Below are positions 8,097 through 14,695 of a stretch of DNA of 64,000 nucleotides, piece after piece. Below the pieces are notes generated by a model. The model saw only the letters and a program-made list of their open reading frames with translations. It searched no databases and was not told the DNA's origin. The translations under genes and the position numbers were made by a program. How positions within the stretch are numbered: the first letter of the stretch is position 1; each line of letters begins with the position of its first letter. Origin of the DNA: Pyrinomonadaceae bacterium (lineage in GTDB: Bacteria; Acidobacteriota; Blastocatellia; Pyrinomonadales; Pyrinomonadaceae); NCBI GenBank assembly GCA_036277115.1, contig DASUNM010000023.1, positions 496,001 through 560,000 of the forward strand, read 5' to 3'.

Positions 8097-8152
8097 ATAG
8101 GACGGGCATGACCAAGGTGATTTCAGACAAAGCAGTTGCCCGGAGGCCAGTC

Positions 8153-10267
8153 ATGAAGACCCGCGTTGCCATCGTTATCATTATTAGTATCATCGCCGCG
8201 TCCGTCGCGCCGATTGCCACTTTTGCCGCCCCGAAAAACGGCAAAGGTCAGACCGAGAAGCGTCGCAAGCTCTCTGCTGAGCTCGAAGCTGTAACGAATT
8301 CATCGACCGTTAAGCGCGTTATTATCCAGACAAAGGGTGCCCCGTCAGCCGCGCATGATAATGCGATTCAATCAAAGGGTGGCCGCCGACATGGTTCCTT
8401 CGACAGTTTTCAACTGGTGGTCGCCGACGTTCCGGGAACTTCACTGACGGAACTCGCCTCCCGCGAGGACATCAGCTACATCTCGGACGATAAACCGGTT
8501 CGGGCGCATGCAGCTTTGGTGACGGAATCGACCGGCGCCGCTCAGGCCCAGGCGGGAGCGCCCGGCGCACCGGCAGTGGATGGCAAAGGCGTGACGATTG
8601 CCATTCTCGATTCCGGTATTAGCTCTAATCATCCTGACTTTGTCGCAAACAACAAATCGCAGGTCGTAGCATCAGTCGATTTCACTGGCAGCACCGTAGC
8701 GGGCGATACGTATGGTCATGGTACCGGCGTAGCCGGAATGGCGGCCGGAAACGGCACCGCTTCCAGCGGCTATGAAGGCAACTACGTCGGTTCAGCTCCC
8801 GGAGCAAATCTCGTCGACGTTCGCGTGCTGGATGGCGCCGGCATCGGCCGGACCAGTAACGTCATCTCCGGCCTGAACTGGGTCATTCAAAACCGTAATC
8901 GCCTCAACATTCGCGTAGTAAACATGAGCCTGGGTGCCGCACCGGAAGAATCGTTTCATGTCGACCCGCTTTGCAAGGCAGTTGAAGCCGCGGTTTTGGC
9001 GAACCTCGTGGTGGTGGTCAGCGCCGGCAATCGCGGACGCACAGAAGAGATCGTTGGCCAGAATGCGGATGGCTCGCCGATTTACCGGTTGGCCTTTGGC
9101 GGCATCAACAGCCCGGGCAACAGCCCGTACGCGATCACCGTAGGCGCCACCGATACGAATGGAACGGTCAAGCGTTCGGACGACACAGTCGCCTCGTTCT
9201 CATCCAAGGGACCCACAGCTTTTGATCGTCAGGTCAAGCCGGACATCGTGGCGCCCGGCCGTCGCGTCATCGCGCCGATGTCGCAAGAATGGAACGCGGC
9301 ACTGCCGATTCAGTTTCCTGAAAAGATCGTTCAGCGGACTTCCTCAAGCGCGCCTGCCAATGTTTATTACACTTATTCGGGAACTTCGTTCGCCGCGCCG
9401 GTCATCTCCGGTACTGTCGCCCTGATGTTGGAGGCCAATAAGTCGCTGACGCCGGCGATGGTGAAAGCGATTCTCACGCGCACTGCCCAGCAACTGTCCG
9501 GCTATCCAAACAAGCCGCAATCGGTTTTCAGCCAGGGTGCGGGACTGGTAAACGCGGCGGCGGCGGTCGAGATGAGCCGCGCGTTTGTGCCTAATGCTCG
9601 CCAACTCAAAGCCGGCGACCAGGTATTCAGTCGTAACACCAGCCTCAGCACGCTGAAGCGGTCCTGGATCATCGGTGGCGAGCGGGTCGGTTCAAGCGAT
9701 CGAGTCCTCTACGCGAACGGTGTTCTTTTTTCAGAACGCCCGCTGCTGACTAAGGGTGTGGTGCTCGGCGACGGTATTTACCTTGCTGACGGTGTTATCT
9801 ACGCGGACGGGATCATCGTCGGTGACGGTCTGGTGCTCGGCGATGGCCACCTGCTAAGCGACGGCGTGGTGCTGGGCGACGGCGCAGTCCTCGGCGATTC
9901 AATCGTGCGAGGTGCCGGCATCATCATCGCCGACGCGTGGTTCCTAAACCAGACGCTGAGTCTCGCCAACGGTAAAGGCGTCGTTCTTGGCGATGGCCAC
10001 TTACTGAGTGACGGCCTGGTGCTCGGCGACGGCCACCTGCTAAGCGACGCCGTGGTGCTGGGCGACGGCGTGGTCCTCGGTGATGGTCACTTGCTGAGTG
10101 ATGGCGTCGTTCTTGGCGATGGCCACTTGCTGAGTGATGGCGTCGTTCTTGGTGACGGCCACCTGCTGAGCGACGGTCACCTGCTCAGTGACGGCCACCT
10201 GCTGAGCGACGGCCACCTGCTGAGTGACGGCCACCTGCTGAGTGACGGTGTGGTGCTCGGCGACTAA
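8153..10267 (+). CDS. Secreted S8 (subtilisin-like) serine protease with C-terminal hexapeptide repeats
   Basis: 704 residues from the ATG at 8153, chosen over one at 8108 because GGAGG lies six bases upstream and a signal peptide (MKTRVAIVIIISIIAASVAP) begins there. A propeptide-like region follows. The catalytic triad is visible: Asp in AILDSGISSNHPDF, His in YGHGTGVAGMAAG, Ser in GTSFAAPVISGTVALML. From about residue 530 to the end the protein is almost entirely six-residue units of type [VH][VL]L[GS]DG, ending with five consecutive HLLSDG units. The tail may form a regular beta-solenoid or surface-attachment module. A strong terminator follows at 10296. Confidence 0.93.
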   Translation: MKTRVAIVIIISIIAASVAPIATFAAPKNGKGQTEKRRKLSAELEAVTNSSTVKRVIIQTKGAPSAAHDNAIQSKGGRRHGSFDSFQLVVADVPGTSLTELASREDISYISDDKPVRAHAALVTESTGAAQAQAGAPGAPAVDGKGVTIAILDSGISSNHPDFVANNKSQVVASVDFTGSTVAGDTYGHGTGVAGMAAGNGTASSGYEGNYVGSAPGANLVDVRVLDGAGIGRTSNVISGLNWVIQNRNRLNIRVVNMSLGAAPEESFHVDPLCKAVEAAVLANLVVVVSAGNRGRTEEIVGQNADGSPIYRLAFGGINSPGNSPYAITVGATDTNGTVKRSDDTVASFSSKGPTAFDRQVKPDIVAPGRRVIAPMSQEWNAALPIQFPEKIVQRTSSSAPANVYYTYSGTSFAAPVISGTVALMLEANKSLTPAMVKAILTRTAQQLSGYPNKPQSVFSQGAGLVNAAAAVEMSRAFVPNARQLKAGDQVFSRNTSLSTLKRSWIIGGERVGSSDRVLYANGVLFSERPLLTKGVVLGDGIYLADGVIYADGIIVGDGLVLGDGHLLSDGVVLGDGAVLGDSIVRGAGIIIADAWFLNQTLSLANGKGVVLGDGHLLSDGLVLGDGHLLSDAVVLGDGVVLGDGHLLSDGVVLGDGHLLSDGVVLGDGHLLSDGHLLSDGHLLSDGHLLSDGHLLSDGVVLGD
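9757..10266 (+). repeat. 18-bp/36-bp tandem coding repeats (LGDG/LSDG units)
   Basis: DNA-level near-identical units encode VVLGDG and HLLSDG hexapeptides. Conservation is highest from about 9960 to the stop, where 18-base units are nearly identical, so recombination or slippage could change the repeat number without shifting the frame. Confidence 0.9.
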
Positions 10268-13672: not shown

Positions 13673-13701
13673 TTGACAAGCATGCGAATTAAGTTTATAT
13701 A
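13673..13701 (+). promoter_or_regulatory. Near-consensus sigma70 promoter of the 24-residue peptide gene
   Basis: TTGACA (13673-13678), a 17-base spacer, then TATATA (13696-13701). Start of transcription would be near 13708, overlapping the palindrome CAACATGTTG (13703-13712), a possible operator. Confidence 0.88.
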
Positions 13702-13709
13702 GCAACATG

Positions 13710-13771
13710 TTGTGCGCCGTTTTCTCTAGACCACAAGAGTTACAGCAACGCAGCATCTTGTGGTCACAACC
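13710..13771 (+). ncRNA. Structured 5' leader of the 24-residue peptide mRNA
   Basis: GACCACAAG (13729-13737) pairs perfectly with CTTGTGGTC (13757-13765). An outer GTTGTG (13710-13715) can pair with CACAAC (13766-13771). The structure ends about 10 bases before the AAGGAG ribosome-binding site. It may stabilise the messenger or regulate translation. No known riboswitch class recognised. Confidence 0.6.
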
Positions 13772-13799
13772 TGAAGACTAAGAAGGAGAAACGACAATT

Positions 13800-13874
13800 A
13801 TGGCAACTAAGAAGAAGGCCGCGAAAAAAGGCGGCAAGAAAAAAGGCGCCAAGAAGGCCGCCAAGAAGAGATAG
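13800..13874 (+). CDS. 24-residue lysine-rich basic micropeptide (histone H1-tail-like)
   Basis: ATG preceded by AAGGAG (around 13783). The product begins MATKKKAAKKGGKKKG and ends AKKAAKKR, using only Met, Ala, Thr, Lys, Gly and Arg, with about half the residues basic. The composition and AKK/KKG motifs resemble histone H1 tails and bacterial H1-like proteins, suggesting binding to DNA, RNA or polyphosphate. That is inference only. The reading frame is framed by a near-consensus promoter, a structured leader and its own terminator, which argues that it is a real, strongly expressed gene. It could alternatively be a leader peptide or a highly abundant RNA. Confidence 0.72.
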   Translation: MATKKKAAKKGGKKKGAKKAAKKR

Positions 13875-13950
13875 TTCGTTAACTCAGGAAACAACATCGA
13901 CCACGTTCACGTGGCGCACACCAAGTGAGGCCCTAGCGGCCCTTAGAAAA

Positions 13951-13990
13951 AGGAACGGCGAATGTTTTAACCCGCCGTTCCTATTATTTT
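13951..13990 (+). terminator. Intrinsic terminator after the micropeptide gene
   Basis: A 10-bp perfect stem, AGGAACGGCG (13951-13960) with CGCCGTTCCT (13973-13982), is followed by ATTATTTT. Confidence 0.88.
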
Positions 13991-14506: not shown

Positions 14507-14695
14507 TTACTCTTCTTCTTCACGCTCGTCTTCCAGATCCTCGTCTTCCTCCTCAGGTTTGTAAATCCGGTAGCCGGTCGAATCGTCGTAATAGTATTCA
14601 GAGGAATCGTCAGGTTCTTGCTCCAGGCGTGGTGCCTCCAGGGGTTCTTTGAACCTCACAGAATCAATCATGCTGTCGTAAGATTCGAAGTACAT
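14507..14695 (-). CDS. Small acidic protein, unknown
   Basis: 62 residues, Asp/Glu-rich, ending in EEEDEDLEDEREEEE, with a Tyr cluster (SSEYYYDDSTGYRIYKPE). The stop abuts the trmL stop and the ATG overlaps the thiE ATG by two bases on the other strand. It fits exactly the space between two genes and has a sensible composition, which supports expression, but there is no clear ribosome-binding site. A later Met (14671) is an alternative start. Function not recognised. Confidence 0.5.
   Translation of the reverse strand: MYFESYDSMIDSVRFKEPLEAPRLEQEPDDSSEYYYDDSTGYRIYKPEEEDEDLEDEREEEE

Follow-up and report, generated by a model that had tools for sequence, protein, structure and literature searches.

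Autoregulatory leaders of ribosomal-protein genes, such as the S15 pseudoknot, place a structured 5′ UTR ahead of a small basic RNA-binding protein. The mycobacterial rpsO leader is one such case (PMC8470358). Phage T4 gene 32 mRNA has an operator in which a pseudoknot at the 5′ end seeds binding of the nucleic-acid-binding protein that the gene encodes; the bound protein then extends along an unstructured region as far as the ribosome-binding site (PMC535899). Among proteins, the bacterial histone H1-like group, which includes the C-terminal domains of AlgP/AlgR3 and PhaF as well as chlamydial HctB/Hc2, is Lys/Ala/Pro-rich, predicted to be disordered and made up of variable short basic repeats (PMC9239181, PMC2848022); bacterial Lys/Ala/Pro domains of this H1-tail-like type, AlgP being the example, are DNA binders and are found in association with polyphosphate granules (PMC9239181). 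Our search of the literature found no report of the leader–micropeptide unit described here.

The window, a 64 000-nucleotide stretch of Pyrinomonadaceae DNA, carries the unit on its forward strand. A sigma-70-type promoter (13673–13701), read from the sequence and recurring in homologous loci, consists of TTGACA (13673–13678), a 17-nt spacer and TATATA (13696–13701). Transcription probably starts near 13707, judging from the promoter position and the edge of the conserved block, which would give a 5′ untranslated leader spanning 13707–13799. The ribosome-binding site AAGGAG (13783–13788), kept in alignments, precedes an open reading frame of 24 codons (MATKKKAAKKGGKKKGAKKAAKKR) and a TAG stop (13800–13874, ATG at 13800), whose Lys-rich frame is retained across loci. 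An intrinsic terminator conserved in the genus closes the unit (13952–13990), with a 10-bp stem formed by the arms AGGAACGGCG and CGCCGTTCCT (13952–13982) and followed by ATTATTTT. Promoter, ribosome-binding site, frame and terminator all lie where the initial annotation had placed them, and this layout is far beyond what chance would arrange. The leader, described there as a structured element of 90 bases, is indeed structured, but its length is about 93 nt and its fold is a pseudoknot, more than a hairpin. Strong expression of the unit, also proposed at that stage, would follow from the promoter match, the one feature that points to it.

Comparative sequence analysis supports both the unit and its conservation. 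By blastn the 331-bp unit was matched in 32 of 60 relatives, with promoter and leader conserved as well as the frame. An earlier covariance model (R1) matched 63 of the 162 genomes of the class Blastocatellia, and with a later one (R2) the number rises to at least 71, mostly with a single copy. The matching genomes belong to families f1–f7 and f9; matches are nearly always one per genome, as in the window's own genome, with two copies in G150 and in G044. Scanning the genomes of 84 980 species for an exact pattern of the leader core returned 57 loci, all attributable to Acidobacteriota. Their labels are Acidobacteria/Acidobacteriota or subgroups thereof (Blastocatellia, Pyrinomonadaceae, Chloracidobacterium sp., Pyrinomonas methylaliphatogenes K22) with one exception, a locus labelled Actinomycetota whose contig is named as Acidobacteria and matches a genome of the window's class. 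When 396 genomes sampled from the phylum were searched for a wider spread, matches came from the window's own class only. Within the genus the unit forms an island of conservation (promoter 77%, pseudoknot 85%, ORF 89%, terminator 89%), while the flanking intergenic DNA stands at 32–33%.

The gene order pilN, pilO, pilP, pseudopilin, unit, trmL is fixed in f1, which we take as Pyrinomonadaceae because it contains Pyrinomonas, and the pilus/trmL synteny suggested by the initial annotation holds throughout that family. Outside f1 these neighbours are generally missing, and the neighbourhood therefore reflects descent and is not required by the unit. Several genera of f1 lack the unit, as do many Blastocatellia genera, and on the latter ground it is non-essential to the class. 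Across 18 genomes from genera without the leader, no equivalent was found 5′ of trmL; in one of the genomes without it (G030) the gap between pseudopilin and trmL is merely short. A genome of the leaderless genus g8 encodes, with no RNA leader in front, a 124-residue Lys/Ala/Pro H1-like protein with a MATKK start (L198 in G105), which could be a replacement or unrelated.

The transcriptional signals recur along with the rest. Of 72 homologous loci, 70 have the pattern TTGAC(A/T)-17 nt-TAT(A/T)NN where it would be expected upstream of the leader, and one more has it with an 18-nt spacer. A generic promoter scan was silent at 13673–13701: it requires a final T, which TATATA does not have. Terminators satisfying a strict rule were present in 49/72 loci compared to 6/72 shuffled sequences, and lineage-specific stems recur, for example GGGGATGG-GNRA-CCATCCCC-TTTTT.

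The leader core, transcript positions 1–60, is gapless in nearly all sequences, and comparative evidence indicates that the transcript 5′ end pairs with a hairpin loop to form a pseudoknot. Helix P2 joins positions 23–32 with 50–59 (in the window GACCACAAGA at 13729–13738 with TCTTGTGGTC at 13756–13765) and is paired in 92% of cells. Helix P1 joins the 5′ end (positions 2–9) with the P2 loop (42–49), so that the strand UGUUGUG at 13708–13714 pairs with 13749–13755 inside the hairpin loop. Four pairs in each helix show compensatory two-sided change. Those of P1 lie at columns 3/48, 5/46 and 8/43, and at 9/42 in relatives, with G3-C48 replaced by A-U, U5-A46 by A-U, G8-C43 by A-U, and C9-G42 by U-A or G-C. 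Two-sided changes occupy 54 cells against 27 ± 4 in shuffles, none of 500 of which reached 54, although such cells are non-independent events. Sliding the partner by 1–3 columns lowers pairing from 89% to 26–52%, and among all 5–7-pair helices of the core with pairing of at least 80%, the P1 and P2 registers rank top by two-sided changes. In L064 and L177, P1 is lengthened by bases that differ in sequence yet match each other. The weak position of P1 is 4/47, mostly U-G, and family f6 keeps part of this helix only. Central P2 pairs hardly or never vary and so are silent on pairing by themselves; their invariance hints at a specific partner, maybe other than the peptide. Taken together, the comparison argues for both helices, and we consider the pseudoknot a likely fold of the leader.

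Other pairings were tried and set aside. Single-sequence folds paired the 5′ end with ACAAC beside the start codon, which is missing in four loci (L022, L028, L029, L030). Pairing of the 5′ UUGUG with CACAA of the P2 5′ arm is compatible with 93% of cells, yet has three two-sided cells only and breaks at position 5 in f6, where compensation restores the loop pairing. A candidate anti-ribosome-binding site in loop 1 (CUCU against GGAG) is unconserved. The inverted repeats could also be seen as an operator in the DNA, bound by a transcription factor immediately 3′ of the promoter, in keeping with TTGTG/CACAA being repeated in alternating orientation around and past the start point. We regard this as most improbable, for the arms keep a fixed spacing around a variable loop, and P2 tolerates G-U mismatches (57 cells) but hardly any A-C (2 cells), which indicates selection on RNA and not on a DNA palindrome.

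What lies outside the helices bears on how the pseudoknot might work. Few unpaired bases are conserved, the exceptions being U21 and a few neighbours, and the loop at 33–41 varies. The linker from the pseudoknot to the ribosome-binding site (13766–13782 in the window, A-rich by cross-locus comparison) measures 10–30 nt across loci with 48% A, is unconserved in sequence and has no predicted consensus structure. A compact 5′ UTR pseudoknot is a frequent aptamer form, and a riboswitch or other small-molecule sensor over the peptide gene might be envisaged; but conservation sits in the helices, and neither a conserved terminator nor a platform masking the ribosome-binding site is found. The scarcity of conserved unpaired bases and the lack of a conserved expression platform argue against a metabolite riboswitch, as does the lack of any Rfam 15 match to the leader even at E values up to 1, and we give this explanation very little credence. 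Relative to Rfam 15 the leader appears to be a new RNA family.

A stronger competitor, though in our estimate still an unlikely one, is that the pseudoknot is a constitutive mRNA-stabilizing 5′ structure, which shields the 5′ end from RNase and sustains steady high output with no feedback. P1 is built from the first transcribed bases and would bury the 5′ end; the promoter is near-consensus and the terminator recurrent; conserved unpaired bases are few and the linker is free to vary, all of which would suit such a role. It is not obvious, however, why stabilization should demand near-invariance of the ACAAG/CUUGU core or a near-gapless 60-nt core across families.

We then considered the frame that follows. 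Wherever the available sequence extends far enough, a ribosome-binding site and then a Lys-rich frame come after the leader. The typical peptide reads MATKK...KKR, with a MATKK or MPAKK start and usually a KKR or KKK end, and its length ranges from 16 to ~170 residues across loci with all length changes staying in frame; this range, the 5′ pseudoknot and the class-wide spread had all escaped the initial annotation. Because the R2 RNA model contains nothing past the start codon, the eight weaker loci that it added (L172–L179) provide an independent test of the frame, and Lys-rich frames are present in all of them, with lengths from 16 to ~170 codons; in L179 the 16-codon frame MATKKKAAKKTAKKKR sits further downstream of the leader. 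Among five same-genus copies, variable sites at codon positions 1, 2 and 3 number 3, 5 and 9, a small sample that by itself is not proof of coding. On these comparisons the ORF is almost certainly a real translated gene.

The frame also weighs on whether the RNA is itself the functional product, a small regulatory or dual-function RNA to which the peptide is secondary. Over long distances the leader is the most recognizable part, and the transcript is a short one that ends at a terminator of its own. An RNA-only gene would nevertheless not be expected to be trailed, at every locus with sufficient sequence, by one Lys-rich frame of 16–170 codons with a conserved ribosome-binding site and a MATKK/MPAKK start, which makes this explanation highly unlikely. 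Nor do the codons drift freely behind a conserved leader, the outcome that had been named as counting against a coding unit; they are mostly confined to Lys/Ala/Gly/Ser/Thr/Pro. The self-contained unit with a genuine frame that was first proposed is borne out by the recurrence of promoter, leader, ORF and terminator across homologous loci. An upstream ORF of 24 codons from 13707 was discarded, as it meets early stops in relatives.

Over all members Lys makes up 34% of the composition, Ala 27%, Gly 13% and Pro 7%, in agreement with the H1-tail-like character first noted, and short members are nearly free of acidic residues. This composition is retained while peptide sequence and length drift; very probably, then, the product is translated and is a polycation of the type seen in histone H1 tails. 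Keeping charge and composition but not sequence is as expected of a disordered polyanion binder, for which AlgP (PMC9239181) and Hc2 (PMC2848022) are precedents, and the peptide probably does bind polyanions. That it lies outside described families, as the initial annotation held, is upheld by Pfam, NCBIfam and Rfam, all empty at their cut-offs; HC2 (PF07382) reached E = 0.12 only, and in one member it scored 13 bits against a cut-off of 40. Since no profile matches above cut-off, we do not assign the peptide to HC2, Hc1 or AlgP; its likeness to an H1 tail is one of composition, and it may function in a similar way. The suggested antimicrobial role is unsupported: the peptide has no visible export signal and its conserved neighbours are housekeeping or pilus genes.

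Searching with MATKK alone returned mostly unrelated proteins, and the Lys-rich DNA matches in the window's own genome (L002, L003) are tails of other proteins and were rejected. L003 (976–1590) encodes a uL22-like ribosomal protein whose Lys/Ala-rich C-terminal tail resembles the micropeptide in composition. In G150, the second leader copy (L122, 2501 onward) precedes a 132-residue Lys/Pro protein with TKVPPTKL repeats, not a Lys/Ala/Gly peptide. Elsewhere in the window, a subtilisin-like protease (8108–10267, forward strand) ends in a long run of VVLGDGHLLSDG repeats. Between trmL and thiE, ~630 bp from the basic-peptide ORF and on the opposite strand, lies a strongly acidic ORF of 62 residues ending PEEEDEDLEDEREEEE (14507–14695, reverse strand), with partial conservation within the genus (43% identity in L136) and a short match in L089; it is a possible charge-complementary partner of the basic peptide.

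We propose a single-gene, class-specific unit in which the level of a disordered polycationic micropeptide is set post-transcriptionally by the 5′-terminal RNA pseudoknot, a proposal that in our judgement stands at even chances. The near-consensus, housekeeping-type promoter would drive transcription, and the H1-tail-like peptide would attach by charge to DNA, RNA or another polyanion. As it accumulates it would condense or bridge nucleic acid, presumably in the nucleoid and possibly RNA or polyphosphate. The pseudoknot would be recognized by a protein, in the simplest case surplus peptide, alone or with a partner; from there, binding would spread through the unstructured A-rich linker until it covered the ribosome-binding site and reduced translation, in the manner of gp32 on its own mRNA in T4. 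Feedback on translation through the knot is, by this analogy, a tentative proposal that we hold at somewhat below even chances. Polycations as short as 16–24 residues show little sequence specificity in their binding to nucleic acid, making specific autoregulation by the peptide alone not obvious. The fullest version, a self-contained feedback module that pairs a new class of structured RNA, confined to Blastocatellia, with a 16–170-residue polycation that condenses nucleic acid or other polyanions and whose free form is sensed by the knot in its own mRNA, we consider doubtful as a whole; were it true, the unit would be a minimal chromatin-like factor of bacteria that carries its own dosage control.

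The unit would add to the known RNA leaders a family that Rfam 15 does not contain. Its products, possibly the smallest bacterial proteins of H1-tail type, fall below the length and complexity that standard gene finders and homology searches can handle. The protein retains charge and composition alone, and recognizable conservation is carried by the mRNA structure. A single-copy unit in the named isolate Pyrinomonas methylaliphatogenes K22 (L085, 6831 onward, 46-codon frame) makes function directly testable; its transcript would be expected to start at or near AUGUUGUG.

Compared with described systems, the micropeptide shares the Lys/Ala-rich basic low complexity of AlgP, PhaF and Hc2, and some relatives (L088, L043, L058) resemble AlgP tails. 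It differs in that the tail is the entire protein, down to 16–24 residues and with no N-terminal domain, in being mostly Lys/Gly or Lys/Ala, and in being tied to a dedicated RNA leader. Like S15-type leaders, the unit has a structured 5′ UTR before a small basic protein; unlike them, its knot is clear of the ribosome-binding site, its product is no known ribosomal protein and its leader is unmatched in Rfam. The nearest functional precedent for the leader would, by analogy, be the T4 gene 32 operator, which has the same order of pseudoknot, unstructured linker and ribosome-binding site ahead of a product that binds nucleic acid in T4 and is predicted to do so here, although the sequences are unrelated, the knot here is larger (59 nt versus ~28) and feedback is a feature of T4 that we infer for the Blastocatellia unit.
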